Below, one piece after another: positions 30,451-62,888 of a DNA stretch of 64,000 bases. The translations under genes were made by a program, and so were the position numbers. Positions within the stretch are counted from its first letter, which is position 1, and every line of letters begins with the position of its first letter. The notes below the pieces were generated by a model that worked only from the letters and a program-made list of their open reading frames with translations, searched no databases and was not told where the DNA came from. The stretch is from a virus. The stretch spans positions 172,392 to 236,391 of the IMG/VR virus record IMGVR_UViG_3300043464_001630; one strand, written 5' to 3'.

Positions 30451-30490
30451 CACCGCTATCTCAGTAACATGAGATAGCGGTGTTTCTTTT
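30451..30490 (+). terminator. Strong rho-independent terminator
   Basis: A 13-bp perfect stem CACCGCTATCTCA/TGAGATAGCGGTG, loop GTAACA, tail TTTCTTTT. It ends the 28-30 kb + strand unit and faces the convergent gene at 30490. Confidence 0.95.
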
Positions 30491-30930
30491 TATAATTTGC
30501 CTTTTAGTGTTTGATATTCCATTTGTGAAGCAGTACCATCTAGTACTCTTCTAGCCGCTTTCATTTCCCCGAATTTGTATATACCTAAAATTGCAATGAT
30601 GTGTAATAGCCAAACAGATATTCTAAAAAATGTTTGTAGCTTTTCATTTCTCAATGATATGTTATAATCTTTCAAGATTGTTATAACCACATCTTTTACC
30701 AGATCTATACTTTCGTTTTTTAGTCTTTTTAATAAAAGAAAAATTTCATCTTTCAATGAATGAACTTTTTTGGTATTAATTGGCCGACCTTGGTTGTCTT
30801 GTGTGAGAAGAATTTTGATTTCTTCCCATTTTTGTAGAATCTCTTTTTTCTTGTTTTTTACTTCATCGATAAGTCCTTCTTCTAAGTAATAAAATTCTTG
30901 AAAACTCATTACGGCATTTTCTTTTTTCAT
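30490..30930 (-). CDS. Putative head-packaged membrane protein
   Basis: This 146-aa protein starts at ATG 30930 (the frame extends to a TTG inside the promoter motif). Near the N-terminus is SFQEFYYLEEG, which resembles a T4 capsid-targeting peptide. A Lys/Glu-rich helical middle follows, then one hydrophobic segment (VWLLHIIAILGIYKFG, about residues 105-121). Late promoter identical to that of the 1325-aa fibre. A packaged or ejected protein is inferred, not shown. Confidence 0.5.
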   Translation of the reverse strand: MKKENAVMSFQEFYYLEEGLIDEVKNKKKEILQKWEEIKILLTQDNQGRPINTKKVHSLKDEIFLLLKRLKNESIDLVKDVVITILKDYNISLRNEKLQTFFRISVWLLHIIAILGIYKFGEMKAARRVLDGTASQMEYQTLKGKL

Positions 30931-30935
30931 AAAAT

Positions 30936-30943
30936 TATTTATC
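30936..30943 (-). promoter_or_regulatory. Late-promoter motif GATAAATA
   Basis: Exactly 5 nt before ATG 30930. Confidence 0.7.
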
Positions 30944-30959
30944 AAAAATGACCACGAAA

Positions 30960-30967
30960 GATAAATC
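30960..30967 (+). promoter_or_regulatory. Variant late-promoter motif GATAAATC
   Basis: Differs from the consensus in the last base but keeps the 5-nt spacing to ATG 30973. Divergent from the motif at 30936. Confidence 0.45.
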
Positions 30968-30972
30968 TATTT

Positions 30973-31287
30973 ATGATAGTAATTTTCAAAAAAATCATTG
31001 ATATGTTTATGAATTTATTATCAGAAAAACCTAAATCTAAATCATTAGAAAATATCGAATTAGAAATAACATGGAGTGACATAGCATCTGGTACTTCCAA
31101 TTCAAAAAATGGTTCAGTATTGGCATATTCCATGAGAAGAAATGGTATGTTTGGTTATGCCACAGAAAGTAATATAGTTTTAGAAAACGGAGATGTTTAT
31201 TATCCAGTAGACTTATCAAGTCACTGGGAGGCTTATATCAATTCACCAAAAATAAAGCCAAAAACCCTACTATATTTTTTGGAATAA
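30973..31287 (+). CDS. Unknown 104-aa protein
   Basis: Hydrophobic N-terminal helix (MIVIFKKIIDMFMNLL), then a beta-rich domain with EITWSDIASGTSNSKNG and VYYPVDLSSHW. The start may be a membrane anchor or a packaging helix. Not recognised. Confidence 0.5.
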   Translation: MIVIFKKIIDMFMNLLSEKPKSKSLENIELEITWSDIASGTSNSKNGSVLAYSMRRNGMFGYATESNIVLENGDVYYPVDLSSHWEAYINSPKIKPKTLLYFLE

Positions 31288-31296
31288 TGTGCTAAA

Positions 31297-31318
31297 TTCC
31301 ATAAGTTAGTTTATGGAA
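31297..31318 (+). promoter_or_regulatory. Hairpin covering the start codon of the 85-aa gene
   Basis: TTCCATAA (31297-31304) pairs perfectly with TTATGGAA (31311-31318) around a 6-nt loop. The ATG at 31313 lies inside the 3' arm, so folding would hide the start codon. Confidence 0.5.
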
Positions 31319-31570
31319 CAGGAGAAAAAATATATTCATATCTCTATTGAAAAGTACGACGCTTTATTAGACGATTGGATAGAGGCTACCGGAACGTATG
31401 CCGATCAATTTAATCTCCACAAAGTGATGAAAAAGTTTGACGAATCGTGTGGGATAGTACATGCTGAGACCGAATTCGATGATGTGGATTTTGATGATTC
31501 ATACACATTCGAAGTAATAGACGGAAAGAAGTTTTTCGTCTCAGCATTAAAATACGATCTTATTAAGTGA
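31313..31570 (+). CDS. Unknown 85-aa acidic protein
   Basis: ISIEKYDALLDDWIEATG at the N-terminus, then an Asp/Glu-rich part (ETEFDDVDFDDSYTFEVIDG). Ends 1 bp before the deaminase-like gene, so the two are co-expressed. Not recognised. Confidence 0.5.
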   Translation: MEQEKKYIHISIEKYDALLDDWIEATGTYADQFNLHKVMKKFDESCGIVHAETEFDDVDFDDSYTFEVIDGKKFFVSALKYDLIK

Positions 31571-31571
31571 A

Positions 31572-31970
31572 ATGTTTGAAAAATATCTAGAAATTACAAG
31601 GGCACTCATGAGCGAAGGGTTCTCTACACGAACGTTTCATACTACGTTCATTGTTAAAAAGAATAGAATTCAAAAAATTGGTATTAATGCGAACAAAACT
31701 CATCCTGCCAATCTGAAGTATGATTATTATTCCAAAAACGGAATAGATCTCAGAAGCATGGTTGGCGTACACTCTGAACTTTCTGCTATTTTGAAATACG
31801 GTAAAGAAGATTGTTCTGATTGTACTTTTGTAAATGTAAGAATTGATAGAAAAGGAAAGACGACAATTTCCAAGCCTTGTAGAGGATGTCAAGATTTGTT
31901 GATGCAAGTTGGATTTAAAAGATTGTATTTTTCGAATGATATGGGAGAATTTGAACAGTGGAAAATTTAA
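31572..31970 (+). CDS. Cytidine-deaminase-fold zinc protein
   Basis: This 132-aa protein has the deaminase zinc motifs GVHSELSAI (His67, Glu69) and SKPCRGC (Cys103, Cys106), plus a KTHP loop at 42-45. Similar phage proteins with NKTHP ... HAE ... PCxxC form a deaminase group distinct from dCMP deaminase. The substrate (nucleotide, RNA or DNA) is not evident. It is the second deaminase fold in this window. Confidence 0.75.
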   Translation: MFEKYLEITRALMSEGFSTRTFHTTFIVKKNRIQKIGINANKTHPANLKYDYYSKNGIDLRSMVGVHSELSAILKYGKEDCSDCTFVNVRIDRKGKTTISKPCRGCQDLLMQVGFKRLYFSNDMGEFEQWKI

Positions 31971-31972
31971 AT

Positions 31973-32437
31973 ATGAAAACACGAACAACGCTAGCACTAC
32001 TACTATCAATGATGACCTCCACATCTTTCGGAGGAGCAAAACTTGACGAAACACTTAAACCTCCATTTTCTTCGATTAAGATTGATCAAGAAACTTATCT
32101 GACCGATACAAACGGAATTTTAAATCCAAAGATGTTGCTTGGATTGATTCCGTCGAATTTGGTTAAAATCTATCTGACTGATGGAACTGTACTGAATGGA
32201 ATCGTAAAAGAAACTGATATTTTCAATAACGAAACGTATAAAGTGTTCGGAGAAATCACAAACAAGAATAATGTTGGTTTTGGTTTTGTGATGACAAAAG
32301 AAGGAATCTTTGCCGGAGCCGTAGTGTTTCGGGATACGGATGAAGTATTTGCGGTGAAGTACAGCGAAGAAGCTAAAGCATTCACGCTGGTGAAATCTCT
32401 TGGAAAGAAATTCACGCCATCAGTTTTTCAAAAATAA
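31973..32437 (+). CDS. Secreted protein of unknown function
   Basis: From ATG 31973, 2 nt after the previous stop, the protein begins MKTRTTLALLLSMMTSTSFG, a clear signal peptide with cleavage near residue 20. The mature part (about 134 aa) is beta-rich (LVKIYLTDGTVLNGIVKETD). A longer version from 31958 would bury the signal. A periplasmic or envelope role is likely. Confidence 0.6.
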   Translation: MKTRTTLALLLSMMTSTSFGGAKLDETLKPPFSSIKIDQETYLTDTNGILNPKMLLGLIPSNLVKIYLTDGTVLNGIVKETDIFNNETYKVFGEITNKNNVGFGFVMTKEGIFAGAVVFRDTDEVFAVKYSEEAKAFTLVKSLGKKFTPSVFQK

Positions 32438-32440
32438 TTC

Positions 32441-32468
32441 TTGCAAGTGTCCTACAATCTGCTATCTT
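32441..32468 (+). promoter_or_regulatory. Sigma70-like promoter of the MoxR gene
   Basis: TTGCAA at 32441-32446, 16-bp spacer, TATCTT at 32463-32468. The leader would be about 44 nt. Confidence 0.5.
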
Positions 32469-32518
32469 CCTCACATCAGCAAGAGCTGAAACCTTAAAAA
32501 CCAAAAACCAAAACTACC

Positions 32519-33589
32519 ATGAGTGAATCGACAAGAACTGTAACACCAAATGCCTTGATCAAGGCAGTAAAGCAAGCCATCAAGGTAAAGCGTCCTGTGA
32601 TGATCTATTCAGCACCGGGCTGTGGAAAGTCTGACATCGTACATCAAATCGGAAAAGAACTGGGTCGTCCAGTGATTGATATTCGTTTGGCTCTTTATGA
32701 TCCTTCGGACATCAAGGGATTTCCTTACTTCGATCCAAAGTCAGAGTCTATGAAGTGGGCTCCTTCTTCGGAATTTCCAAAGGATGAATTCTCGAATGCT
32801 ATCATCTTTTTGGACGAGCTAGTATCGGCGGCTCCTTCAACACAAGCAGCAGCATATCAGCTCGTGCTTAACTATCGTGTTGGTGAATATGTTCTTCCAA
32901 AGAACTGTGCTATTGTTGCAGCAGGTAATCGCGCATCAGATCGTGGAGTCGTATACAAGATGCCAATGCCACTTGCAAATCGTTTCATTCATCTGGATCT
33001 AAAGGTTGATGTAGACGAATGGATTGACTGGGCACTGAATAACAGCATTCACAAAGATGTCGTGGGTTATGTTTCTCACATGAAGCAAGATTTGTTCTCG
33101 TTCGATCCAAAGACATCTGGTCATGCATTTGCAACTCCACGCACTTGGCAGTTCGTATCACAATTTCTACAAGACGAAGACGAAATGGGCGAAGACACTG
33201 CACTAGACCTTATTTCAGGAACAATTGGTGACGGATTGGCATTGAAGTTTAATGCGTATCGTAAAACTTCAGCAAAGCTTCCGAAAGCAATTGATATTCT
33301 CGAAGGAAAGGTTTCGTCACTAAAGACGAAAGAAATCGGAGCCCTTTATTCTCTTGTTATTTCTCTTTCTTATGAACTGAAAGAATTTCACGAAAAGAAA
33401 GTCAAAAACTTCTGGGGTTATATGGACACTGCTTTTGATTTCTGCATGAAGAATCTTCCTGCTGAATTGAATGTCATGTTCTCCAAGACTCTCATGAAGA
33501 ATTGCGGAGTTCCCATCGAACCAGACAAGATGAACAAGTTTGATGATTACTACAAGGAATACGGTAAGTATATCTTTGCGAATGTTTAA
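32519..33589 (+). CDS. MoxR-type AAA+ ATPase
   Basis: This 356-aa protein is a MoxR/AAA_5-like chaperone ATPase. Walker A is APGCGKS (32-38), Walker B IIFLDE (95-100), sensor 1 is AAGNR (Asn137), and the arginine finger is near ANR (Arg155). MoxR ATPases work with von Willebrand A proteins to remodel complexes. The vWA/zincin partner is encoded four genes downstream (35195-36454). It has its own promoter and a terminator directly behind it, so its dosage can be set apart from the partner. Confidence 0.88.
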   Translation: MSESTRTVTPNALIKAVKQAIKVKRPVMIYSAPGCGKSDIVHQIGKELGRPVIDIRLALYDPSDIKGFPYFDPKSESMKWAPSSEFPKDEFSNAIIFLDELVSAAPSTQAAAYQLVLNYRVGEYVLPKNCAIVAAGNRASDRGVVYKMPMPLANRFIHLDLKVDVDEWIDWALNNSIHKDVVGYVSHMKQDLFSFDPKTSGHAFATPRTWQFVSQFLQDEDEMGEDTALDLISGTIGDGLALKFNAYRKTSAKLPKAIDILEGKVSSLKTKEIGALYSLVISLSYELKEFHEKKVKNFWGYMDTAFDFCMKNLPAELNVMFSKTLMKNCGVPIEPDKMNKFDDYYKEYGKYIFANV

Positions 33590-33608
33590 AATTTGGTAGT
33601 GGTTATGG

Positions 33609-33637
33609 TTGACGCGGTCACATTTTAGTGATAGAAT
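33609..33637 (+). promoter_or_regulatory. Sigma70-like promoter overlapping a terminator
   Basis: TTGACG (33609-33614), 17-bp spacer, TAGAAT (33632-33637). The spacer and -10 lie inside the terminator hairpin of the preceding gene, and the predicted start (about 33644) falls in its 3' arm. Confidence 0.65.
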
Positions 33638-33652
33638 GTGACCGCGTTTTTT
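33613..33652 (+). terminator. Terminator after the MoxR gene
   Basis: 12-bp perfect stem CGCGGTCACATT/AATGTGACCGCG, 10-nt loop, then TTTTTT. It coincides with the promoter for the next gene. Confidence 0.92.
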
Positions 33653-33658
33653 AAACAT

Positions 33659-33982
33659 ATGATTACACGATCCGAACTAGACGACTTTGTAGACGAGAAT
33701 TATCCTGATGAGGATATTCTAATTCCTGATGGCTTTGAAGAAGCATTCGTCGGAATTGCAATGCAATTTAATAAAGCCATTGCTATTTTTGATAAGCAGA
33801 AGTGTATAGAAATTCTTTGTAGAGATATGTCTCGCGAAGATGCGTTAGAGTATTTCTACTATAACGTAGAAGGAGCATACGTAGGTGAAAGGACTCCAGC
33901 TTTTTTAGATTTTTTTAAATTCGAAACAAATGATGTTTCCGAAAAACACATAGCAGAACAGTTTGAACTTCCCTTAAATTAA
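33659..33982 (+). CDS. Conserved phage hypothetical protein
   Basis: This 107-aa protein starts at ATG 33659 (the GTG upstream lies in the terminator). Core text: FEEAFVGIAMQFNKAIAIFD, CIEILCRDMSREDALEYF and EGAYVGERTPAF. The FxxAFxGxxxxFN / MSxEEAxEYF / AYVGExTP pattern is found in many large phages with no known function. Confidence 0.65.
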   Translation: MITRSELDDFVDENYPDEDILIPDGFEEAFVGIAMQFNKAIAIFDKQKCIEILCRDMSREDALEYFYYNVEGAYVGERTPAFLDFFKFETNDVSEKHIAEQFELPLN

Positions 33983-33990
33983 ACAATTAA

Positions 33991-35004
33991 ATGAAACTAG
34001 CAACAGTTGAAATCATTAAAGAACTACTTCCTATTGATGGCGCAGATCGAATCGAACTTTGTAAAGTTAACGGATGGCATAGTGTCGTCCTTAAAGATAC
34101 TTTTAGAGTTGGTGATCGTGTCGTTTTTATCCCTATTGATACTATCATTGATCCTGCGCCTTGGAACTCTGCTTTCCATGATAAAGATAATCCATCTGCT
34201 GCTATCCGTGTAAAAACTAAAAAGCTACGTGGAGTAATTTCTAGTGGTTTGATATTTCATACAAACATTATTCCTGATCCATTTTATCAGCCAGAAATTG
34301 GAGAAGACGTTTCTGGCCTTATTGGTGGAATTTCCAAATATATTAAATCCATACCGATTCAGCTACAAGGAATTGCCAAGGGTGATTTTCCAACACACAT
34401 TGTTTCTAAAACAGACGAAGATAATCTTTTATCTAATCCACAAGTTTTAGAAGAATTAAAAGAATGTGATACGATCACGGTAACATTGAAGGCAGATGGA
34501 ACTTCTGGAACTTTTATTAAAGAACTAGACGGAACATTTCGTGTATGTTCACGTAATCTAGAATTAGAAGATGGAGACAATATTTATCGGCAAATGGCTA
34601 AGAAATACGATCTACAGAATCTGATGGGAGACGGAATGGTTTTTGGAGGAGAAATTATTGGACAAGGGGTACAGAGCAATCCTCTAAAAATCGAAGGTAA
34701 TGAATTTCATATTTTTAATATTAAAGATTTAAATGACAATTCTTATCTATCATATGACGACATGGTTCTTACTCTAGAAGGTTCTGGATTGAATGTAGTT
34801 AAAGAAGTGAAGAGACTCGAAGGAGAAGATGTGAAGAATATTTCGCTCAATTACTTCCAAAATCTAGCAAACGAACAGAAGTATGGAACTGATCCCGCAG
34901 AAGGTATTGTGATCAGAGGCTATAAGAATAATCAAACAGTTTATAGTCCTACACTACAAAAGATGCTGAGTGTAAAGGTTATTAATCAAAATTACGTGGA
35001 TTAA
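33991..35004 (+). CDS. RNA ligase, Rnl5 (DRB0094) type
   Basis: This 337-aa ATP-dependent RNA ligase has an N-terminal OB-like domain (1-110) and a nucleotidyltransferase domain. Motif I is KADG (Lys167, the AMP acceptor), motif III FGGEIIG (Glu221), motif IV AEGIVIRG (Glu304) and motif V SVKV (Lys329). The N-terminal OB domain plus this motif spacing fits the Deinococcus DRB0094 family rather than T4 Rnl1 or Rnl2. It probably seals nicks in RNA, for example tRNAs cut by host defences. It lies between the MoxR and vWA genes. Confidence 0.88.
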   Translation: MKLATVEIIKELLPIDGADRIELCKVNGWHSVVLKDTFRVGDRVVFIPIDTIIDPAPWNSAFHDKDNPSAAIRVKTKKLRGVISSGLIFHTNIIPDPFYQPEIGEDVSGLIGGISKYIKSIPIQLQGIAKGDFPTHIVSKTDEDNLLSNPQVLEELKECDTITVTLKADGTSGTFIKELDGTFRVCSRNLELEDGDNIYRQMAKKYDLQNLMGDGMVFGGEIIGQGVQSNPLKIEGNEFHIFNIKDLNDNSYLSYDDMVLTLEGSGLNVVKEVKRLEGEDVKNISLNYFQNLANEQKYGTDPAEGIVIRGYKNNQTVYSPTLQKMLSVKVINQNYVD

Positions 35005-35007
35005 GTT

Positions 35008-35235
35008 ATGAGCTTGGATAAACGAATCGCCAAAGGAGAGGAAAAGCGTAAACCTTATTTCGATTCGCGGCGATTCGATTATTCCTGTAGAAACCACGGC
35101 ACTTGTCCTTGGTGCTACGGAAATAGAATGCATAAAAACAAAAAACAAGAAATTTCTTGCGAACAACAAGAAAAAGAAGTAACATCAGAAGATCATGACG
35201 AATCGAATTCAAATGGCACGCAAGAAGAAAACTAA
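35008..35235 (+). CDS. Small zinc-binding protein
   Basis: This 75-aa protein has RRFDYSCRNHGTCPWCYGNR: Cys/His ligands C-x2-H-x2-C-x2-C, as in a short conserved phage/bacterial family. The C-terminal half is charged and disordered. Its 3' end overlaps the start of the vWA gene by 41 bp. Confidence 0.6.
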   Translation: MSLDKRIAKGEEKRKPYFDSRRFDYSCRNHGTCPWCYGNRMHKNKKQEISCEQQEKEVTSEDHDESNSNGTQEEN

Positions 35236-43395: not shown

Positions 43396-44703
43396 ATGAT
43401 TAGTATTAAATGCAAAATTAAAAACCAAATTGATGTTGCTGATTATATCCGTCAGTTTAACAACGTCAAGCGTTTTGCATATAATCGTTTCTTAGAAAAG
43501 AAAAGCTTATCAGAAGTTTATCATTTATCTTGCAAAACTTTAAATAATTGCGAGTTGCTAGATGCTTCCTTTAGAGAAGCTGCTGTTCTGAAAGCTAAAG
43601 AGATTTACGATACAAGTGGGGATAATAAAGTAATCTTCGGTGGTAGATCAAATTTCAATAAACTCAAATATAAAAAAGAATCAGCCAAACCTTTACGAAG
43701 AAATGTTTCTTTTTATTCACAAGGTAGAGCAAATTTCAAAGGTAATCGTAAATTTAATTTTGACTTAGAAAACAACAAAGTAGTTTTTAAACCAGAAAGA
43801 AAAGTTAAGATAGAAATAAAATTCGAAGAAGTTTCTAAAAATCAAAAGAAACTTTTAAAGAAAGCACAATATCTGTCACAAAGAAAAGAACTTTCAATTT
43901 CTGTTCAAGTTTCGGAAACTCATATAATATTTGCTATAGATGAATCTATTTTACAGAATCAAAATTACAAACCAATCAAAAATAGAATTTTAGCTTTAGA
44001 TTCTAATCCAGAAAATATTGGTTTGAGTATTATAGATTGGATTGACCCAGATACTAAAACTATTATTCATAAAGAAGTTATTGATCTGAAAGGACTTAGA
44101 GATCTTAGTACGAACAAAAAACATCATGAAATCCTTAGCGTTTCTCAAAGAATAGCCAAGTTAGCTAAACATTACCAATGCGAAATCGTATGTTTCGAAA
44201 AGCTCAATATTAAGCCTAAGGATAATGGAAAAGGAAAACTTTATAATCGTTTAGTAAACAATAATTGGAATCGTATCAAGTTCTTCCAGAACCTTACTAA
44301 ATGGTGTAATATCTTTGGAATAGCAACCCAAGAAGTTGCTTCCGAATTTTCAAGTTTTATTGGTCAATTAACAAATGAACATGATGTGGACATGATAGCT
44401 GCTTCGATAGAAATCTCACGAAGAGGTTTCCTATTCTACAATCATTATGTTGCTAAAAGAATTTCGTCAGTAAATAACGAAAAGGTGAACATAGTTTACC
44501 CTGAGTTTAATGTTAGTTCTCTACCTACTCGTTGGAAGAAAATGGTACAGGATGATGATGCATTAGGTTCATGGAAGAAACTATACTATCATCTAAAAAA
44601 ATCAGAAACGAGTTATAGGTTTTCTCTGAAGGATTGGAAACAGTCCAAAGAGTTTTTAAGGCACAAGTCTAGGAAAAGTAATGTTTTTCTATATTTCGGC
44701 TAA
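43396..44703 (+). CDS. TnpB-related RuvC nuclease lacking the zinc finger
   Basis: This 435-aa protein belongs to the group annotated as IS200/IS605 accessory TnpB-related proteins. RuvC-I is RILALDSNPENIGLSI (Asp202), RuvC-II is EIVCFEKLNI (Glu268) and RuvC-III is HDVDMIAASIEISRRG (Asp330/Asp332). Between II and III, where TnpB has CxxC...CxxC, there is only VASEFSSFIGQL, so the zinc finger is missing. The catalytic acids remain, so it may still cut nucleic acid. There is no tnpA. It could be an RNA-guided nuclease of a divergent branch or a homing-type element. Confidence 0.8.
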   Translation: MISIKCKIKNQIDVADYIRQFNNVKRFAYNRFLEKKSLSEVYHLSCKTLNNCELLDASFREAAVLKAKEIYDTSGDNKVIFGGRSNFNKLKYKKESAKPLRRNVSFYSQGRANFKGNRKFNFDLENNKVVFKPERKVKIEIKFEEVSKNQKKLLKKAQYLSQRKELSISVQVSETHIIFAIDESILQNQNYKPIKNRILALDSNPENIGLSIIDWIDPDTKTIIHKEVIDLKGLRDLSTNKKHHEILSVSQRIAKLAKHYQCEIVCFEKLNIKPKDNGKGKLYNRLVNNNWNRIKFFQNLTKWCNIFGIATQEVASEFSSFIGQLTNEHDVDMIAASIEISRRGFLFYNHYVAKRISSVNNEKVNIVYPEFNVSSLPTRWKKMVQDDDALGSWKKLYYHLKKSETSYRFSLKDWKQSKEFLRHKSRKSNVFLYFG

Positions 44704-44967: not shown

Positions 44968-44975
44968 ACTAAATA
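44968..44975 (+). promoter_or_regulatory. Late-promoter motif ACTAAATA
   Basis: 6 nt before ATG 44982. Confidence 0.58.
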
Positions 44976-44981: not shown

Positions 44982-46616
44982 ATGAAGTATAGTACTGATC
45001 CTATTTTCGAAGCCTATTCCAACCACAGAAAACAATTTATTTTAGAACAAAGTGTAGCTAGTTTTTACGCTTCTGATCCTCTTCAAGAGCTTCGTGATTT
45101 ATATCAGTACGATTTAGATTGTATCGAAGAATTAATGACCGAAGGAATGCTAGGAGATGCATTCGGTAAAGTTAAAGGTGGTATACAAAAAGCCACTTCT
45201 TATGTTGCTAATAAAGGATTACAGTTATTATTCAGTTTAATTAAAAAGACAGCAACTCCAGAAGAATTAAAAGAAATTCAGGGACTAAAAGATGCAGATC
45301 TTGAAGAGTTAGCAAAGAAAGGAAAAGAAGCATTAAAATCTTCTAGTTCTTCTGAAGATTCAGCTACTAAGAATGAATCTGTTTATTTAAATAAGAGTTT
45401 CTTTGCTTCTATATTAACAGAATCTAATATCGAAGTGATGCTAGAAAAGTATGGTTTCATTACTGAACAGATCTTATCAGAAGCACGAGCGGGATATAGT
45501 CCAAAATTTGCCGCAAATTATCCCGAAAAGATGGAAAAGCGAAGCTTACCATATAAACAAGGAATCAAAAGACAACGTGCGGAAACAGCTAAAAAAAACT
45601 TAGAACTTGCTAAATTAGCAAAAGTAGTAGCAGATGGTTTAAAGAAGAAATACAATACACGAGAAGTTAATAGATTTTTATTAGCACTTGATAACGAAGT
45701 TAGCCAACGTGCTCCTGTTACTGGTTTGCGTAGGAGACCAACTGATATTGCCGGTGGTGATGAATCTTCATTAACAACTTCAGGAAGCCGATTCAGATCA
45801 CCAGCACCTAAACGATTGGCTGGTTCTGAAGAACCTACAACAATTGATGTACAAGCAGAAACACTTCCTATTGAACCAGAAGCATTACCATATAGCGGCG
45901 AAACTGCTCCGAAGGAAAAGAAAAAAGAAGGACTTATTCGTAAAGCAATTAATTGGGTAAAAGCTAATCCAAAGAGAACTGCTGGTACATTGGTTGGCAT
46001 TATTGCGGCGATTGGGGTCGCAGTGGGTGGTCCTGCCGTGTTACTTCCTATGTTAGCCAAAGCTGGACTAGGTTCTACTGCATTAGGCGCAGCAGGAGGA
46101 GCAATTAGCGGAGCTGGACTTGGTGCCGCTAAGAACATCGCATCACAAGGATTTAGTAATAAGAAATTTTCAGGAAAAGAACTAGGCAAAGCCGCACTAA
46201 AAGGTGGAGCATTCGGTGCAGTTACAGGAGCAATCGGAGGAGCAACTAAACTTGCCGATCAAGATGTCGCTACAGGAGCAGGAGATTCTGGAGCAGGAGA
46301 AGTAGACACAGCCGATGTAGGAGACGCAAAAGAAGGTGGTAGTGATTACACTGGTGGAGCAGAAGACGTTTCTGCTACTTCGGAAGATTTCCAAAAATAC
46401 AACGGAGAAGAATTAGATCCTAAATCATGGAGAGATAAGATTAAAATGGCAGCTCTTGATAAACTAAAGAAAGATGGTGATGGACAAATTGATGGTAGTA
46501 AGTATAATAGCTTCGTGAAGAAATTAGTAGCTATGGGCAAAGATGCCAAAGGAAAATCAATTGAATCTATAATGGGAGAATCTTATACCGTACAATATTT
46601 GAGTCTACTAAGGTAA
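44982..46616 (+). CDS. Large virion protein with glycine-rich membrane-active domain
   Basis: This 544-aa protein starts with a helix ending FILEQS (Glu near residue 23) and has a second helix-Glu-Gly block LMTEGMLGDAF, similar to capsid-targeting or cleavage sites in T4-like heads. Residues about 315-425 form a long Gly/Ala hydrophobic stretch (GIIAAIGVAVGGPAVLLPML and AGGAISGAGLGAA), as in ejected pore-forming virion proteins. The C-terminus has a possible EF-hand-like loop (DKLKKDGDGQIDGSKYNSF). An internal or injected protein is the best guess. Terminator follows. Confidence 0.6.
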   Translation: MKYSTDPIFEAYSNHRKQFILEQSVASFYASDPLQELRDLYQYDLDCIEELMTEGMLGDAFGKVKGGIQKATSYVANKGLQLLFSLIKKTATPEELKEIQGLKDADLEELAKKGKEALKSSSSSEDSATKNESVYLNKSFFASILTESNIEVMLEKYGFITEQILSEARAGYSPKFAANYPEKMEKRSLPYKQGIKRQRAETAKKNLELAKLAKVVADGLKKKYNTREVNRFLLALDNEVSQRAPVTGLRRRPTDIAGGDESSLTTSGSRFRSPAPKRLAGSEEPTTIDVQAETLPIEPEALPYSGETAPKEKKKEGLIRKAINWVKANPKRTAGTLVGIIAAIGVAVGGPAVLLPMLAKAGLGSTALGAAGGAISGAGLGAAKNIASQGFSNKKFSGKELGKAALKGGAFGAVTGAIGGATKLADQDVATGAGDSGAGEVDTADVGDAKEGGSDYTGGAEDVSATSEDFQKYNGEELDPKSWRDKIKMAALDKLKKDGDGQIDGSKYNSFVKKLVAMGKDAKGKSIESIMGESYTVQYLSLLR

Positions 46617-46628: not shown

Positions 46629-46661
46629 AAAAGCTCGCACTTAAATGTGCGAGCTTTTTTT
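46629..46661. terminator. Bidirectional terminator
   Basis: AAAAGCTCGCAC (46629-46640) pairs with GTGCGAGCTTTT (46647-46658) around TTAAAT, with T-runs on both strands. It serves the genes converging at 46616 and 46641. Confidence 0.93.
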
Positions 46662-47009
46662 GTGCTCAAGATAGACTTCGCCATATGCTTCAAACTGACC
46701 AACAAGATCCTGAAACTCCCTTTGAGTCATTTTATGCCATTTTTGTATTCTTGCTGCTAGAGCGTCTGCTTTGGCTTTTATGTCTTTTTCGAAACTTTCT
46801 TTTTTTAATGTACGTAGAGCTTGAGAATATGGTTTTTCTTTGGCGGCGAAATGAATCTCCGTTAATTTTGCAGGCCCGCCCTTTGCTTTTGCTGTTTTTC
46901 TAATTTTATCGGCACCACTTTTTCGAGCTTCTACGAATTTTTCAAAATCGTTGACACTCTTCTTCGATTCAGTTAGTATCTCTTCCATCAGTTGGTTGAA
47001 CTTTTGCAT
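46641..47009 (-). CDS. Putative head-packaged basic protein
   Basis: This 122-aa protein starts MQKFNQLMEEILTESKKS, fitting a T4-like capsid-targeting peptide with cleavage after LTE. The rest is Lys/Ala-rich and helical (KSGADKIRKTAKAKGG). Basic internal head proteins of T4-like phages look like this. Its last codons lie in the terminator stem. Confidence 0.55.
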   Translation of the reverse strand: MQKFNQLMEEILTESKKSVNDFEKFVEARKSGADKIRKTAKAKGGPAKLTEIHFAAKEKPYSQALRTLKKESFEKDIKAKADALAARIQKWHKMTQREFQDLVGQFEAYGEVYLEHKKSSHI

Positions 47010-47014: not shown

Positions 47015-47022
47015 TATTTATG
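47015..47022 (-). promoter_or_regulatory. Late-promoter motif CATAAATA
   Basis: Exactly 5 nt before ATG 47009 on the minus strand. The motif overlaps the start codon of the divergent gene at 47020. Confidence 0.65.
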
Positions 47023-47190: not shown

Positions 47191-47383
47191 AGTTCACCGA
47201 TCCATCGGAAAAGAATTTGGTATAAGTTTTTGGAATGGATTTGAATTAAGAAATCACTTAAATGTAAATTTCGGTTTAGTTTTTACTTCTAAACGGTTTG
47301 TGTACGATTATTATAAACCTACTTGTGAACATAAATTAATGATTTTTGCGATTCAACACAACAACTACATAAGAAAAAAATGA
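47159..47383 (+). CDS. Unknown 74-aa basic protein
   Basis: ATG 47159; the frame extends to a TTG at 47099. Basic, with KVHRSIGKEFGISFWNGFEL and YKPTCEHKLMIF. Overlaps the sigma factor start by 4 bp. Not recognised. Confidence 0.5.
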   Translation: MKKITNKTRIKVHRSIGKEFGISFWNGFELRNHLNVNFGLVFTSKRFVYDYYKPTCEHKLMIFAIQHNNYIRKK

Positions 47384-47889
47384 ATACAATCCCAACAGAA
47401 CTACTAACTCAGCTATATGCGGAAAAGCATCGTGAATTGTATTTGACATCAAATCGTATTGTAAAAGATGACGAACTTGCACATGATGTAGTACAAGAAT
47501 GTTTCGCTCGTTTGCATAAACAAGATTTTGACAAAGTGGGTGATCATTTGATTCCTTGGTTGTTCACGGTTTGTAGAAATCTATCCATTAGATTTTTAAA
47601 CAAAAAGAATCGTTTCGTGGAAATTTTTGAAACTGATTACGACAAAATTGATGAATCACGAACTCCAAGCGAACAAATGGATCTAGAGATTCATAAGAAA
47701 CTCTTAAAAAAGTGCATGAGGAAGCTCACTAAGCGGCAACGTGATGTACTTAAACTTAGGTTCTTTAAAGATCTGGATTATAATACTTGTGCTAAAAAGC
47801 TAAAAACTTCCAGCGGAAATATAGGCTTTCAGCAAAGTACGGCAATTCAAAAACTTAGAAAAATGATGATGGATCAAATTCATGAATGA
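47380..47889 (+). CDS. ECF-type sigma factor (candidate late sigma)
   Basis: This 169-aa protein has sigma region 2 (residues about 10-80: DDELAHDVVQECFARLHKQ, PWLFTVCRNLSIRFLNKK) and region 4 (about 110-165: LTKRQRDVLKLRFFKDLDYN, then SSGNIGFQQSTAIQKLRKM). It would redirect host RNA polymerase. It is the only sigma factor in the window and the natural candidate to read the TAAATA promoters, as gp55 does in T4, though it keeps a region 4 that gp55 lacks. It is coupled to the preceding small basic gene and overlaps the next by 8 bp. Confidence 0.85.
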   Translation: MNTIPTELLTQLYAEKHRELYLTSNRIVKDDELAHDVVQECFARLHKQDFDKVGDHLIPWLFTVCRNLSIRFLNKKNRFVEIFETDYDKIDESRTPSEQMDLEIHKKLLKKCMRKLTKRQRDVLKLRFFKDLDYNTCAKKLKTSSGNIGFQQSTAIQKLRKMMMDQIHE

Positions 47890-55148: not shown

Positions 55149-55156
55149 AATAAATA
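55149..55156 (+). promoter_or_regulatory. Late-promoter motif AATAAATA
   Basis: Exactly 5 nt before ATG 55162. It singles this gene out from the surrounding block, whose genes lack the motif. Confidence 0.65.
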
Positions 55157-55161: not shown

Positions 55162-55563
55162 ATGAAATTTAAAGATTTGGTAAATCACATCTTGAAAGAA
55201 AATATACACGGTGACAACTGGGCATCTACTAGTTGGACACATGTTGTTGACGGGAGAGAAGTTACAGTCAGTATCAATGACATGTTAAATCTCATAAAAG
55301 ATAAACCTGTGCAAGAAATCAAAACAAAGATTTTAGAACCTTACGCTCTACATAAAACAAAAACAGACGAGCAAACATTAGCAAATATTCAAAAATCTAA
55401 TTTAGATTATCCAATTATTGTTTTACACCATCCAAATAAATATCAAATTTTAGATGGTCATCATAGATTACAAAAAGCAATTAATAATAAATTACCTACT
55501 ATTAAAGCAAGAGTAATTGAATTGTCCGATATGCCCGAAGAATGGCAAAGGGTTTTCGCTTAA
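55162..55563 (+). CDS. ParB-like domain protein with capsid-targeting-like N-terminus
   Basis: This 133-aa protein starts MKFKDLVNHILKENIHGDNW, fitting a T4-like packaging peptide ending LKE. Residues about 80-125 form a ParB N-terminal-like core: YPIIVLHHPNKYQILDGHHR (DGHHR at 98-102). ParB-like folds bind or cut nucleotides or DNA. With a late promoter and this N-terminus it may be packaged and delivered to the cell. No HTH is present, so partitioning is unlikely. Confidence 0.65.
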   Translation: MKFKDLVNHILKENIHGDNWASTSWTHVVDGREVTVSINDMLNLIKDKPVQEIKTKILEPYALHKTKTDEQTLANIQKSNLDYPIIVLHHPNKYQILDGHHRLQKAINNKLPTIKARVIELSDMPEEWQRVFA

Positions 55564-58123: not shown

Positions 58124-58124
58124 T

Positions 58125-58409
58125 ATGGAAGAAGAATACGAAGCAATCGACAAGATCATCAATAGAGTAATGGCTAGATACGGTAATATTGGTCACGTAA
58201 ATATGCTAGAACTTCTTCGGGAGGTCACCATAGCAGCTCTAGAAGAGGGACATAAAGCTGGGTGCGACAACGGTTATGAAGAAGGCTTACAAAATATTTC
58301 TCCGGAACAATACGAACTTATCATGGAAAAGGTTCAGGTAAAGATTGACGAAGCCTTTTTAGCAGGCTACGAAGCAGGTCTTGATGCTGCTTATATTACC
58401 AATCAATAA
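58125..58409 (+). CDS. Unknown 94-aa helical protein
   Basis: Two similar halves with GHKAGCDNGYEEGL and AGYEAGLDAAY, i.e. a degenerate G-x2-A-G-x3-G-x2-x-G-L repeat. Last gene of the small-gene block. Not recognised. Confidence 0.5.
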   Translation: MEEEYEAIDKIINRVMARYGNIGHVNMLELLREVTIAALEEGHKAGCDNGYEEGLQNISPEQYELIMEKVQVKIDEAFLAGYEAGLDAAYITNQ

Positions 58410-58463
58410 TTATTTCACTTTATCAGAAATAAAAGCAAAAGAAAAGAATCAAATTAAACTAGA

Positions 58464-59069
58464 ATGCTTTTTGATAAAATTGTGAATAACTTTCTACAAA
58501 CATCTTATTTTGTGGAAAGTCCTATGTATTATGATGGCGTTTTTAATGATCAATTACAAAAACTCGATCATAACAAAAACATAGCCGATGGCGTCATCAA
58601 AAAATACGAAAAGTTCGATAATTTTAAATCTTGGAATGTATATAAAATTCCTGATGGTTTTGACGAGAATAAATTCACTTACTGTTTAATTAAACAAAAT
58701 AACGTTGATTGTTTTATAGAAATATCCAAAAAATCTTCCTATAATTTTTCTACTGGAGTCTGGCAAAGAAAAGACACAACCAAAGGACTAGCAAGAGATT
58801 TCTTTTTGAATTTTTTACCTAAGTATTACGATTCTATAATTTCTGATAAAACAGCTAACAAACTAGGAATAAGCTTTTACAAAAAACTACTAGACGATGC
58901 ACTATCTTTGGGATACACTGTTACAGTCCTCAACGGATCTCATAAAAACGAAGAACCTTACGATCCTAATAAATTCGATAGTTATTGGATCACTGTAGAT
59001 AGAGATGTACCGACACATCCAACATTTATAACTTCTAAAGATATTCTTTTTAAAATTTATTTCAAATGA
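58464..59069 (+). CDS. Unknown 201-aa protein, acetyltransferase-like outline
   Basis: Starts MLFDKIVNNFLQTSYFVESP. Middle strand CLIKQNNVDCFIEISKKSSY, then GVWQRKDTTKGLARDFFLNF and a final SYWITVDRD. The order strand, basic loop, helix is reminiscent of GNAT enzymes and is seen in other T4-like virion-associated proteins. This is weak, and I would not assign an activity. Confidence 0.5.
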   Translation: MLFDKIVNNFLQTSYFVESPMYYDGVFNDQLQKLDHNKNIADGVIKKYEKFDNFKSWNVYKIPDGFDENKFTYCLIKQNNVDCFIEISKKSSYNFSTGVWQRKDTTKGLARDFFLNFLPKYYDSIISDKTANKLGISFYKKLLDDALSLGYTVTVLNGSHKNEEPYDPNKFDSYWITVDRDVPTHPTFITSKDILFKIYFK

Positions 59070-59106
59070 AAAAATATTTAGACTTTGAGGAGAAACCGGA
59101 AAAGGG

Positions 59107-59664
59107 TTATTTGCCCCTCGTTTTGAGATAAAGTATCCCAAAAAATATTCCAACAGGATTAGCAATGAGGGGAATAACTGCAATAGTTGCAATTACAATT
59201 CCAATGGCTTTGAGAATATTTCCAGCAGTTGCTGCGGGTTTTTTAACAATGTCCATGAATTTTTGTACGGCGCTTTTAACTTGTTCTGTAGATTCGGAGT
59301 TTTTTTCAGGCATTGCTACTTTAGATCTTCGTTTACTTAAAATTTCCATCTCTTCTGGGGAAAATCCTTCTGATCCTCCTCGCATTAAGTCTTTCGCGTC
59401 CCATCGTTGTGGTTCGTAATAATTACCAGAAGACTCAGATACTTGCTCGTTCGTAATCATATCCTGTAACTCTTTTGCTGAACGAGCTTGCCTCAATTGA
59501 TCGTATACTTCTGGAGCAAATCGTTTAATGGTTTGAGCAACAGTACTCATTGCCCAATCAACGAGTTTATTCTTTAATGCATTAGCAATACCTTCATTTA
59601 ATAATTCATCATGACGGACTTGGGTATATAGTTCAGCTAGTAATTCGGAATCATTTTTACGCAT
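59107..59664 (-). CDS. Putative head-packaged protein with C-terminal membrane helices
   Basis: This 185-aa protein starts with helix DSELLAELYTQVRHDELLNE followed by GIANAL, like a targeting peptide plus cleavage site. A helical middle contains KRFAPEVYDQLRQARSAKEL. The last 50 residues are hydrophobic (NILKAIGIVIATIAVIPLIA, VGIFFGILYL). Such layout suits a virion protein that enters the host membrane at infection. Confidence 0.55.
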   Translation of the reverse strand: MRKNDSELLAELYTQVRHDELLNEGIANALKNKLVDWAMSTVAQTIKRFAPEVYDQLRQARSAKELQDMITNEQVSESSGNYYEPQRWDAKDLMRGGSEGFSPEEMEILSKRRSKVAMPEKNSESTEQVKSAVQKFMDIVKKPAATAGNILKAIGIVIATIAVIPLIANPVGIFFGILYLKTRGK

Positions 59665-59669
59665 AATTT

Positions 59670-59677
59670 TATTTATC
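59670..59677 (-). promoter_or_regulatory. Late-promoter motif GATAAATA
   Basis: Exactly 5 nt before ATG 59664. Confidence 0.7.
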
Positions 59678-59695
59678 TTTTACTAAAAGATTTTC

Positions 59696-59703
59696 TATTT
59701 ATC
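59696..59703 (-). promoter_or_regulatory. Second GATAAATA upstream of the same gene
   Basis: A copy 26 bp further upstream. Transcripts from it would have a short leader, so the gene may have tandem late starts, or this copy is chance. Confidence 0.35.
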
Positions 59704-59739
59704 TTTTCAAATAAAAGTTACGAAAGATCTAAAGAAGAG

Positions 59740-59768
59740 TTGACTTGTCTTCATCGTATCTGTAATAT
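59740..59768 (+). promoter_or_regulatory. Sigma70-like promoter TTGACT-17-TAATAT
   Basis: -35 TTGACT 59740-59745, 17-bp spacer, -10 TAATAT 59763-59768. The predicted start is the A of ATG 59775. Confidence 0.55.
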
Positions 59769-59774
59769 GTACAC

Positions 59775-59825
59775 ATGGAAGAGAACGGAGATAGAATTCC
59801 TATTAAAGAGCAGAATCTTTCCTGA
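59775..59825 (+). CDS. Possible leaderless 16-aa ORF
   Basis: ATG 59775 to TGA 59825, encoding MEENGDRIPIKEQNLS, placed exactly at the predicted start point of the promoter before it. Very short, so it may only be a translated leader of the downstream gene. Confidence 0.3.
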   Translation: MEENGDRIPIKEQNLS

Positions 59826-59855
59826 AAGTAAAAGAAAAAAAAAGATTAAAATTAA

Positions 59856-59863
59856 AATAAATA
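59856..59863 (+). promoter_or_regulatory. Late-promoter motif AATAAATA
   Basis: 9 nt before ATG 59873. Confidence 0.5.
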
Positions 59864-59872
59864 ATCACCAAT

Positions 59873-60316
59873 ATGAGTAATGATATTAAAATAATAAGTG
59901 AGATATATTCTCGCATATACTTAGAGAATAATTCATCCGAAGCACTTGAAAAGTTTGCCTCTGATCTCCATGAAGTATGGCGTAATGGATGGATTAAACA
60001 AAACGGTGGCAAAAGTCTACCGAGAATGAAGAAAGGTTCTAAAGGACAAGAAGTAGATATAAATGTACCATTTTCTAAATTAGATGCAGCATGGCGAAAA
60101 GAAAATGAAGAAGCAGCTAAAGCTGCTTTACAAGCTGTTAATCAATTTCCAAATGACGAAGAAGCAGCAGCAGATTTCATCCATAGAGAATGGATGAAAC
60201 GTAATCCGAAGGGAGATTGGAATGCAGCACAACACGTACCATACAAATCTCTTCCAGAAGAAGAAAAAGAAAAGGACAGAGTTCATGTCCGATCTATGAA
60301 ATCTTTATTAAGTTAA
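59873..60316 (+). CDS. RyR-domain-like protein, possibly head-packaged
   Basis: This 147-aa protein begins with a helix ending IYSRIYLENN. Then come two helical repeats typical of bacterial/phage RyR domains: EKFASDLHEVWRNGW with VPFSKLDAAWRKEN, and DFIHREWMKRN with VPYKSLPEEEKEKDR. RyR domains are linked to nucleotide-derived ligand recognition. With a late promoter and a targeting-like start, packaging is possible. Confidence 0.6.
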   Translation: MSNDIKIISEIYSRIYLENNSSEALEKFASDLHEVWRNGWIKQNGGKSLPRMKKGSKGQEVDINVPFSKLDAAWRKENEEAAKAALQAVNQFPNDEEAAADFIHREWMKRNPKGDWNAAQHVPYKSLPEEEKEKDRVHVRSMKSLLS

Positions 60317-60342
60317 AATTTGATTTTTTTTATTCACTTTAA

Positions 60343-60639
60343 ATGAAAAAAGTTAAAATCACAAAACTAAGTGCAGCAGAAAATCCCAAGTATCCTACAC
60401 CTGATTTCGATGGTTATGAACTAGGAAAAGAAAACGGTAATGTTTCGCTTCCTGCTGAATATATTGTAGAAGGAAACATGGAAAAAGATCCCGTAGTAGG
60501 ATCTAGTGTTTTTGTGGAAAGAACTTCTAGAAATGGTGTAAAATCCTATGGATGTTTTTATACATCTCCTGTGACTGAAATTACTGAAAATGGATTTAAA
60601 ACACAAAATTCAATATATAAGCTAGAAGTTCTTGATTAA
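60343..60639 (+). CDS. Conserved phage hypothetical, beta-barrel-like
   Basis: 98 aa. VSLPAEYIVEGNMEKDPVVG, SSVFVERTSRNGVKSYGCFY and TSPVTEI are a recurrent pattern in T4-like phage proteins and suggest an SH3/OB-like barrel. Function unknown. Confidence 0.6.
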   Translation: MKKVKITKLSAAENPKYPTPDFDGYELGKENGNVSLPAEYIVEGNMEKDPVVGSSVFVERTSRNGVKSYGCFYTSPVTEITENGFKTQNSIYKLEVLD

Positions 60640-60666
60640 ACAAAAAATTTAAATTATACTAAAAAT

Positions 60667-60894
60667 ATGGAAACAATTCTAGTAATCAGCAATCAAGTAG
60701 TACGGGATAATGCAAAAGTTAATTTTCCTGATTTGAATTATCCAAATTCAGGAGACACTGTACTCAGGTATCTACACAAGATCGACTACGAAAATCTACG
60801 CCTTCAGCTAGATGGAGAAGATGGAATCTGGTTTGAACATCCTAATCTTCCAAAAGGTGTAGGATTCTTTACAACAATTAAGAAAAAGAAATGA
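60667..60894 (+). CDS. Unknown 75-aa protein
   Basis: LVISNQVVRDNAKVNFPDLN start, Lys-rich end. Overlaps the next gene by 4 bp. Not recognised. Confidence 0.5.
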   Translation: METILVISNQVVRDNAKVNFPDLNYPNSGDTVLRYLHKIDYENLRLQLDGEDGIWFEHPNLPKGVGFFTTIKKKK

Positions 60895-61100
60895 ATGAAT
60901 CTAAATTAGATCAGTTATTATTAGATATTTTATCCGATATAGATTTAGATATTTCTTGTTTGGAACTAGAAAGAATTGAACTTAAACTGAACTCTTTTAA
61001 AAATCTTATCCAAAAAGCATATATGACGGGACAGTGTCATGCTTTTGACGAAGTTTATGCTCTAATAGAGAAAGCTATAGAAAATAAAAAAGATAACTAA
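60891..61100 (+). CDS. Unknown 69-aa helical protein
   Basis: SKLDQLLLDILSDIDLDISC, leucine-rich helices, charged end. Not recognised. Confidence 0.48.
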   Translation: MNESKLDQLLLDILSDIDLDISCLELERIELKLNSFKNLIQKAYMTGQCHAFDEVYALIEKAIENKKDN

Positions 61101-61109
61101 TCTCCATAC

Positions 61110-61757
61110 ATGGAAACTTTATATTATCAATCATTATTAAAAGAATGTTCTTTAGTAGAACCGAAGAACACTAATAATGATTGGAAATATATCTTTTCTG
61201 TATATGAAAAATGCTATCAACTACAAATCTTAGAAAAGTTCGAATTCTCTTCGGAAACTAAAAAAGATAAAGTTACTGAACATAATTACAAGATAGAAAC
61301 AAAATCTGGAAAAGTCTTCAGTGTTTTGATATCTTATTATAATTCAGATAATAGCTACGAAATAGCTAACTCAAGCGAAACACTAGCTAAACAAAAGAGA
61401 AATAATACATTAGCAAACGAATTTGAAATTCTTAAAAACAAATTAAAGAAAGACGATTCTAAAATTTGTATAATTAATTTCATTGACTCAGATGCTAGAA
61501 ACACTTTAACAAATGAAGTTAATTACGAATCATTTGAAGTATTCTCTTCTTTAAAAGATTCGTTAATGGATAGCTTACTGAACAAAAACATGATAGAAGA
61601 TCTATCAGCCATTTCATTCAGAATATCTAAAAATGAAGGAAAAAGAAGAGAATTGTATATTAAAATGTTTAATAGATATCTAGGAAAACTATTTCCAGTT
61701 TTCTTCGAGGATAATTTAACAAACGAAGATTACGAAATTCTTTATTTCTGTAAGTAA
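61110..61757 (+). CDS. Unknown 215-aa protein
   Basis: Starts METLYYQSLLKECSLVEPKN. The middle has a restriction-fold-like alternation (NYKIETKSGKVFSVLISYYN) without a clear catalytic set. Overlaps the next gene by 1 bp. Not recognised. Confidence 0.5.
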   Translation: METLYYQSLLKECSLVEPKNTNNDWKYIFSVYEKCYQLQILEKFEFSSETKKDKVTEHNYKIETKSGKVFSVLISYYNSDNSYEIANSSETLAKQKRNNTLANEFEILKNKLKKDDSKICIINFIDSDARNTLTNEVNYESFEVFSSLKDSLMDSLLNKNMIEDLSAISFRISKNEGKRRELYIKMFNRYLGKLFPVFFEDNLTNEDYEILYFCK

Positions 61758-61996
61758 TGAGTAACTACGACGTAAAATTCGTACATGACAAAGATCCAAT
61801 ATTCAATATGTGGCTGGTATCTGATGATCCCGATCCACATGATGATGAAGTCGATATGAATTACGATAATTATCTAATTTACAAGAATTTCGGAGTGAAG
61901 AGAATAATTACTCCTTTAGGCACGCAAAATTTTCGCTACTACGAAATAGTAGACGAAAAGCAGTACTTTCTAAGTAAAATAAAATACGGCTTTTAA
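61757..61996 (+). CDS. Unknown 79-aa protein
   Basis: Asp-rich (WLVSDDPDPHDDEVDMNYDN), then basic. Not recognised. Confidence 0.48.
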   Translation: MSNYDVKFVHDKDPIFNMWLVSDDPDPHDDEVDMNYDNYLIYKNFGVKRIITPLGTQNFRYYEIVDEKQYFLSKIKYGF

Positions 61997-62004
61997 ACAA
62001 ACCT

Positions 62005-62082
62005 TTACTTCTTCGGAGGTACGGGTTTTTCTTTTTTTGGTTTCTTCTTTTCTTTGCGATGAGAATTGTTACCTTTTGCCAT
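62005..62082 (-). CDS. 25-aa lysine/proline-rich protein with its own late promoter
   Basis: ATG 62080-62082 on the minus strand, TAA at 62005-62007. The product is MAKGNNSHRKEKKKPKKEKP plus VPPKK: 25 residues, about half Lys. It has a perfect GATAAATA at the standard 5-nt spacing, which argues that this tiny ORF is real. A DNA- or RNA-condensing or packaged peptide is conceivable. Function unknown. Confidence 0.6.
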   Translation of the reverse strand: MAKGNNSHRKEKKKPKKEKPVPPKK

Positions 62083-62087
62083 ACTAT

Positions 62088-62095
62088 TATTTATC
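62088..62095 (-). promoter_or_regulatory. Late-promoter motif GATAAATA
   Basis: Exactly 5 nt before ATG 62082; divergent from the + strand motif at 62102. Confidence 0.7.
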
Positions 62096-62101
62096 TTTTT
62101 C

Positions 62102-62109
62102 GTTAAATA
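62102..62109 (+). promoter_or_regulatory. Late-promoter motif GTTAAATA
   Basis: Exactly 5 nt before ATG 62115, which fixes the start of the gene (the frame extends further upstream). Confidence 0.68.
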
Positions 62110-62114
62110 ATTTC

Positions 62115-62888
62115 ATGAATTTTGATAAGCTAGTTAAGCGTTTAACCGAAGCACCAGTAGGTGATATTGGTTTACACGGTGATTGGGAAAATGAAAAACT
62201 ACACCGTTATGATCGTCCTTCTATGCGAGCATTGAAAAAAGAAGGATATCTAGAAAAAGTAAAATCAAAGTTCGCAAAAGATATCGCAGTAAATTTTAAC
62301 TTATTTTTCGTTAAATCTGCACAAGCTGGCAAACATAGAGAAGTAGGAATTGTTTCTCCTGATAGATTACGTTCTATGATTTCAGATGTAAATTTAGATC
62401 CTATATTAAATTCTTCTAATGAGAATAATATTACGATTGTGTTCACAAATAACGTAGGCGATCAGAAAGTTCCGTTAACTCCTTGGATTATTGCACACAG
62501 AACTAGTCATGCTCTTTATCGTGGATCAATGAACGATAAAGAAATAAAAAGAGAATATACTTTTTTTATGCAAGAATACAAAAATACGTTAAAACATTGT
62601 TACGGTATTTTAATAAATGACTACGGAAGTGGTGTGGATAAAGATAATAGTCAGAAATTAAAGAGATTCTTTAGTACTGTAGGTACATTCAAATCGGCTA
62701 GAGATAAAAAAGTTATACGTCCATTTGAGTTTATCCATGAATGTTTCGCGCAATATCTAATGGAAGGTGGAATTACGTTTAACGAAGGAGAAGAAAGAAG
62801 AATGTGTTCATACGAATTACAAACTAACTTCGAAGCTTTATTCAGTCATGTGTTGTATAAATCTGAGGGCAAAATTTTTGTGATGTAG
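62115..62888 (+). CDS. Virion-associated protein with targeting-like N-terminus
   Basis: This 257-aa protein starts MNFDKLVKRLTEAPVGDIGL, the clearest T4-like capsid-targeting peptide here (cleavage expected after LTE). The core has VPLTPWIIAHRTSHALYRGS, a block I associate with large-phage proteins of unknown role, and later FEFIHECFAQYLMEGGI. His and Glu residues (HRTSH, HE) could bind metal but no standard HExxH is present. It is probably a packaged protein. Confidence 0.6.
   Translation: MNFDKLVKRLTEAPVGDIGLHGDWENEKLHRYDRPSMRALKKEGYLEKVKSKFAKDIAVNFNLFFVKSAQAGKHREVGIVSPDRLRSMISDVNLDPILNSSNENNITIVFTNNVGDQKVPLTPWIIAHRTSHALYRGSMNDKEIKREYTFFMQEYKNTLKHCYGILINDYGSGVDKDNSQKLKRFFSTVGTFKSARDKKVIRPFEFIHECFAQYLMEGGITFNEGEERRMCSYELQTNFEALFSHVLYKSEGKIFVM

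Follow-up and report, generated by a model that had tools for sequence, protein, structure and literature searches.

Repeated N-terminal peptides on unrelated late proteins of an uncultured T4-like phage point to a large set of probably capsid-targeted proteins

In this study, we analysed a 64,000-nucleotide stretch of viral DNA (hereafter the window), which covers bases 172,392-236,391 of the 236,391-base virus record IMGVR_UViG_3300043464_001630, and we focused on late proteins that start with a short peptide ending in Glu. We found that the phage encodes many unrelated late proteins which share one of two repeated N-terminal peptides. In phage T4, the internal proteins IPI-IPIII carry the capsid-targeting sequence (CTS) MKTYQEFIAE/A (a slash marks the cut site), which is cleaved by the prohead protease gp21. 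It is probable, at roughly 0.84, that the peptides described here are also CTSs, and that the proteins behind them are internal head proteins which are clipped by the protease and in many cases injected. We infer docking, cleavage, packaging and injection from the sequence.

The rest of the record was also fetched, and 320 genes were picked with our own gene calls. It is a single uncultured record, and the depth of homologs is low. Positions with the prefix G000 are coordinates in the phage's own record, positions without a prefix are those of the window, and G002, G003, G005, G006 and G008 are relatives.

Results

Seven proteins of the window carry such a peptide:

30490..30930, minus strand: 146-aa protein, N-terminus MKKENAVMSFQEFYYLE/EG, the closest peptide in the window to T4 MKTYQEFIAE; no family match in Pfam and PHROG; late box TAAATA at 30936-30941.
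44982..46616, plus strand: 544-aa protein, class-1 N-terminus MKYSTDPIFEAYSNHRKQFILE/QS, hydrophobic Gly/Ala-rich segment near residue 337; no family match in Pfam and PHROG; late box at 44970-44975.
46641..47009, minus strand: 122-aa basic protein, class-2 N-terminus MQKFNQLMEEILTE/SKK; late box at 47015-47020.
55162..55563, plus strand: 133-aa ParB/sulfiredoxin-like protein, class-2 N-terminus MKFKDLVNHILKE/NI; matches PHROG 17560 (E=6e-14) and several ParB families; late box at 55151-55156.
59107..59664, minus strand: 185-aa protein, class-1-type N-terminus MRKNDSELLAELYTQVRHDELLNE/GI, hydrophobic C-terminal segment near residue 150; late box at 59670-59675.
59873..60316, plus strand: 147-aa RyR-domain protein (Pfam RyR, E=1.2e-7), class-1-type N-terminus MSNDIKIISE/IYSRIYLE/NN; late box at 59858-59863.
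62115..62888, plus strand: 257-aa HxxxH...E protein, class-2 N-terminus MNFDKLVKRLTE/AP; late box at 62104-62109.

Class 1 comprises MND..LIWE.Y or its relatives, and class 2 follows M.F..L...[IL]L.E. The core motif of class 1, I[WFY]E.Y, was found in 12 proteins within the first 16 residues and only once in 62,492 internal positions (expected 0.08; shuffles, mean 0.13 and maximum 2). In addition, residues 2-20 of all non-homologous protein pairs were compared blindly, with residues 31-49 as the control segment. There were 71 N-terminal pairs versus 7 control pairs at score 32, and 39 versus 0 at score 40 or more. This comparison gave one cluster of 14 proteins, which included the window proteins at 44982, 59107 and 59873. 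After promoter-based refinement of the start codons, class 1 contained 16 genes, and the late promoter was present on 16/16 (hypergeometric p = 5e-10). The class-2 pattern had five N-terminal occurrences and no internal one, with the window proteins at 55162 and 62115 among the matches; under strict matching the class thus counts 5 proteins, and judged by eye it may reach about 16, with 46641, 55162 and 62115 among them. Phage T4 served as a positive control, and here the blind method clustered the CTSs MKTYQEFIAEA (twice), MKTFKEFIKED and MKTFKEFTSTT. Sharing of a short N-terminal peptide by unrelated proteins, a hallmark of CTSs, is therefore present here at the sequence level, and the window peptides, judged by these comparisons, form the degenerate margin of a signal that extends over the whole genome. 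A DNA pattern for MND..[LM]IWE.Y found only one relative in viral contigs.

A preliminary description of the window had named six such N-termini and a similar seventh, and had called the set scattered. Each of the seven is confirmed and reads from the expected start codon, but the number was too low, with 16 class-1 and 5-16 class-2 genes genome-wide. The late promoters that it had proposed were also found, as the TAAATA box lies just before the start codon in all seven genes, with a spacing to ATG of 5 nt (30490, 46641, 55162, 59107 and 62115), 6 nt (44982) or 9 nt (59873). Its ParB-like and RyR-like cargo agrees with the family matches listed above. Its basic cargo holds for some proteins only, with net charges of +8 (46641) and +6 (62115 and 30490), but 0 to +5 for the rest. 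Furthermore, the cut site that it placed in 59873, after Tyr-Leu-Glu, fits [LI]-x-E less well than Ile-Ser-Glu-10 of the same peptide.

The gp21-like prohead protease that the CTS interpretation calls for is encoded at G000:72809-73267 (PF03420, E=3.2e-29). A protease of this family (S77) was found in 8/10 related records tested, and the other two are fragments. T4 gp21 cleaves after [LI]-x-Glu. The major capsid protein of our phage has CLRE/ANVAGG at the expected maturation position, and among the relatives Glu occupies P1 of the capsid cut site in 61/81, while A/S/G dominate P1'. Hence [LIF]-x-E/[ASG] stands at the expected capsid maturation site in this phage and most relatives. The tagged proteins show the same cut motif, [LI]-x-E, at residues 9-24; the exception is 59873, with Tyr-Leu-Glu or Ile-Ser-Glu. 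As a separate observation, the Glu of the predicted capsid maturation site is lost (CFEA) in a subset of relatives, L041-L054 and L063-L066, and therefore the cut may have moved to an upstream LLE/N in these phages.

Comparison of codons 2-11 among 11 class-1 genes gave a pS of 0.90 and a pN of 0.185 (pN/pS 0.21); farther upstream, the genes share 27% identity and their DNA is unrelated. Purifying selection acts on the class-1 peptide across unrelated cargos. Since synonymous sites are saturated while the amino acids are kept, the peptide is old and maintained by selection, not freshly copied.

The exchange of peptides on conserved cargo is the strongest evidence that class 1, class 2 and the T4 CTS would be interchangeable in function. 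The family of 62115 includes a homolog in the same genome (G000:50584-51561) and homologs in other phages. Their N-termini, MNFDKLVKRLTE/AP, MNDEQMIWERYKLISE/VP, MQSFKQFFTE/AP, MKIYELLSE/AP and MRAYEILTE/AP, range over class 2, class 1 and T4-like peptides, and yet E12 before the cut and P14 two residues on are invariant in the alignment (6/6 members). Similarly, orthologs of 46641..47009 keep the body and carry other peptides (METFNNLVQTILE/, MQHDSEKIFLLYE/ and MRLLELLRE/): the peptide is class 2 here and in L012, class-1-like in G003, and MRLLELLRE/ in gp082 of the cultured Flavobacterium phage vB_FspM_immuto. For homologs of the RyR protein 59873, similarity mostly starts at residue 21-23, and L165 begins with MKTLKDFISE. 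Thus, orthologs of window proteins in related phages have textbook T4-like CTSs (MQSFKQFFTE/AP and MKTLKDFISE), in line with the preliminary comparison to T4. A peptide-pattern search of viral contigs confirmed no close relative of 46641-47009, 55162-55563 or G000:34448-34819, and a protein search among cultured phages found no relatives of 62115 and 59873.

The cargo appears to be largely enzyme- and effector-like. The motif of 62115..62888 is HRTSH, an HxxxH which lacks the catalytic Glu, with a further Glu at a distance; it is zincin-like, and the HExxH zinc site of zincin metallopeptidases is absent from it. Residues 1-33 of its predicted structure have low confidence. A PDB fold search with this family gave no match, and two uncharacterised phage proteins match it in BFVD. 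Outside the window, tagged proteins include a GNAT acetyltransferase (1.7e-8) and a PcfJ protein (4e-7) by Pfam/PHROG matches, a DUF5700-like zinc peptidase with AHEMGHH (1.7e-4, which does not reach the curated threshold), and another protein with a weak ParB-like match. The predicted structure of G000:13344-14033 (pLDDT 64, modest) matched KptA/Tpt1 (E=3.5e-5) and the ADP-ribosylating toxin DarT1 (E=9e-3) in Foldseek, so that an ADP-ribosyltransferase (ART) fold is seen on the predicted model. Two tagged or tag-like proteins, G000:34448-34819 and G000:105030-105764, share its HxT...GL motif. Sequence searches of solved structures with the ART-like and ASCH-like proteins gave nothing useful, and PADLOC gave no hits.

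TAAATA lies exactly 5 nt before the start in 51/320 genes, including those for the protease, sheath and baseplate, and this is the dominant spacing genome-wide. We take this box, from its distribution, as the late-type promoter of the phage; its presence on 16/16 class-1 genes and all seven window genes predicts late expression of the tagged proteins. The exact T4 late box TATAAATA was also tried and is not enriched (4 found versus 10 expected). A candidate reader of the boxes is encoded in the window:

47380..47889, plus strand: phage sigma factor with Sigma70_r2/r4 (PHROG 1740, E=2e-15).

It is plausible that this factor recognises TAAATA. The same box stands 5 nt before ATG in 23-29 genes of three relatives (G002, G003 and G005), whereas the T4 late box is mostly 12-29 nt upstream. 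With the 5-nt spacing, the promoter geometry of T4 would put the transcript start on ATG itself, and leaderless late mRNAs are therefore predicted across this clade of T4-like phages. The scarcity of Shine-Dalgarno sequences in the genome agrees with this prediction.

Repeated or T4-like N-termini were also seen in relatives. In Flavobacterium phage immuto (NC_055915; L141-L144), MENFDLKKFLVENKLT recurs at the start of 4 unrelated proteins and MKKSxLxxIIKEEL at the start of 3. These are probably the CTSs of that lineage, and therefore it may be general that a lineage has address tags of its own. With regard to virion proteomics of immuto, the single paper on Baltic Flavobacterium phages that was consulted does not mention this phage. 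In G002, an independent relative (L121:421-5182), genes with CTS-like N-termini form a run at one record end; a late box precedes several of them, and their cargo includes RelA/SpoT-like, ParB and GP88 domains and a weak phosphodiesterase-like match. In addition, conserved homologous proteins of G005, G006 and G008 start T4-like (MKTFKQYIQE, MDNFKEYYNK and MITFKQFLLE/GG), and therefore tags may also sit on core-genome proteins.

Three other genes of the window were noted. Two encode TnpB/OrfB-like proteins by sequence reading (259-1497 and 43396-44703), and a late-type box precedes the first at a distance of 7 nt. The third (1733-5710) encodes a very long tail-fibre-like protein with many repeats of about 45 aa (LPLSGGELTGALTGTEGLFT...) and a late box.

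Discussion

The gp21-like protease, the capsid cut motif, the T4-like peptides on orthologs and the T4 blind control together support the capsid-targeting interpretation that was first suggested for the window. Under this interpretation, an N-terminal helix of 9-24 residues would have been added to many late proteins. During late expression and head assembly, the peptide would dock them on the prohead scaffold core, and the gp21-type protease would then cut after [LI]-x-Glu and free the mature protein inside the head. The mature proteins would be packed with the DNA, many of them would enter the host at infection, and there they could act on host defence or host machinery. In T4, the internal proteins and Alt lose the peptide, remain with the packaged DNA and reach the host at infection (PMC9026906, PMC12373910).

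Several points weigh against this interpretation. First, T4 targeting depends on residues 4 and 7 (PMC9026906), but the aromatic residues of class 1 are at 8 and 11. Aromatics at 4 and 7 are seen in orthologs of relatives (MQSFKQFFTE) and nearly in 30490, but not in class 1. Thus, recognition of class 1 must differ from that in T4. Second, in six class-1 proteins the in-motif IWE/A or IWE/S is the only [LI]-x-E ahead of residue 30. Since Ala or Ser directly follows IWE in all of them (6/6), a cut at IWE itself would suit, and MNDEQLIWEAYENNN is an example with IWE/A as the candidate site. Third, class-2 membership past the 5-7 regex matches was partly judged by eye, and its limits are partly subjective. 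Fourth, over ten tagged proteins the N-terminus diverges no more between orthologs than it does in untagged genes, so that faster-evolving N-termini are not supported as a general property of tagged proteins. Therefore, peptide exchange holds for particular families and is not a general rule.

The alternative that carries the most weight, although it is tentative, is that some of the tagged proteins, chiefly those of class 2 encoded close to the head genes, would be gp67/gp68-like parts of the prohead core or scaffold, which would carry the same peptide for assembly and degradation and would not be injected. T4 core proteins are also protease substrates (PMC9026906), and two late proteins, the acidic, low-complexity G000:130167-130784 and G000:121525-122034, have orthologs in several relatives. 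However, for most class-1 cargos the fetched relatives contain no ortholog, and several cargos resemble enzymes or effectors, a pattern that suits accessory effectors and not core parts.

It is unlikely that the peptide serves for docking elsewhere, for instance on the tail, on the outer capsid or at a host-cell site, with an incidentally conserved Glu. The register of class 1, unlike that of the T4 CTS, would agree with this, but relatives have a T4-like peptide on the same cargo, Glu-x-Pro persists when the peptide is exchanged, and the peptide is absent from the sheath, tube, baseplate and fibre genes. A requirement of leaderless translation initiation, in place of protein sorting, is very improbable: late promoters 5 nt from ATG would probably give leaderless mRNAs, but most other genes with the same spacing (sheath, protease, baseplate and fibres) have no motif, and selection acts on the amino acids of the peptide. 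Equally improbable is a functionless leftover of recent copying of a promoter-plus-start cassette, since short stretches from promoter to codon 11 are indeed alike across genes but the saturated pS, the low pN and the unrelated upstream DNA contradict it.

As putative CTSs, the peptides resemble those of T4 IPI-IPIII in being short, in standing on unrelated late proteins, in their hydrophobic-x-Glu end, and in the presence of an S77 protease and the motif at the capsid site. However, the main peptide here is MND..LIWE.Y with another aromatic register; at least 20 proteins are tagged here, whereas in T4 these are the three internal proteins and Alt; and the T4 cargo consists of small basic inhibitors, whereas here it is largely enzyme-like. 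Like Alt, the packaged ADP-ribosyltransferase of T4, G000:13344-14033 would be late and has a predicted ART fold behind a putatively removable N-terminus. However, its closest fold matches are Tpt1/KptA and DarT, not Alt, and it has no sequence match to Alt. Polyvalent proteins (PMC5512222) share the ART, metallopeptidase-like, ParB and GNAT cargo, and RelA/SpoT in a relative, but they are multidomain polypeptides, whereas the proteins here are separate and small, each with its own tag, and nearly all have a single short domain. The giant phages phiKZ and SPN3US also have many protease-processed inner-head proteins, which are ejected. Their propeptides are often over 100 residues long and are cut at A/S-x-E by an S80 protease (PMC5694885), whereas those here are short, with L/I-x-E and an S77 protease. 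In T4 relatives, at least ten internal proteins with a CTS have been reported (PMC12373910).

Thus, the principle is known from T4, and the novelty here lies in the kind of peptide, in the number of tagged genes and in cargo that is mostly enzymatic. The set comprises 16 class-1 and 5 or more class-2 genes and may reach about a tenth of all genes. No description of the MND..LIWE.Y targeting peptide was found in the literature searched. We regard it as evenly balanced whether this is a modular arsenal of capsid-delivered effectors, taking up to about 1/10 of the genes and sorted by a peptide distinct from the T4 CTS, with each lineage of the T4 superfamily having evolved its own repeated tag. 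If this is true, the injected effector set of almost any T4-superfamily phage could be read from its repeated N-termini.

Proteins injected with phage DNA are the first to meet bacterial defences, but except in T4 and a few giant phages it is difficult to recognise them. In this genome, the recurrence of late N-termini on unrelated proteins yielded 20-30 candidates for injection, with enzymatic activities predicted for them, and in relatives the signal recurs with other peptides. If confirmed, this would allow injected effectors to be listed from genomes alone and would provide new targeting peptides for loading phage heads.

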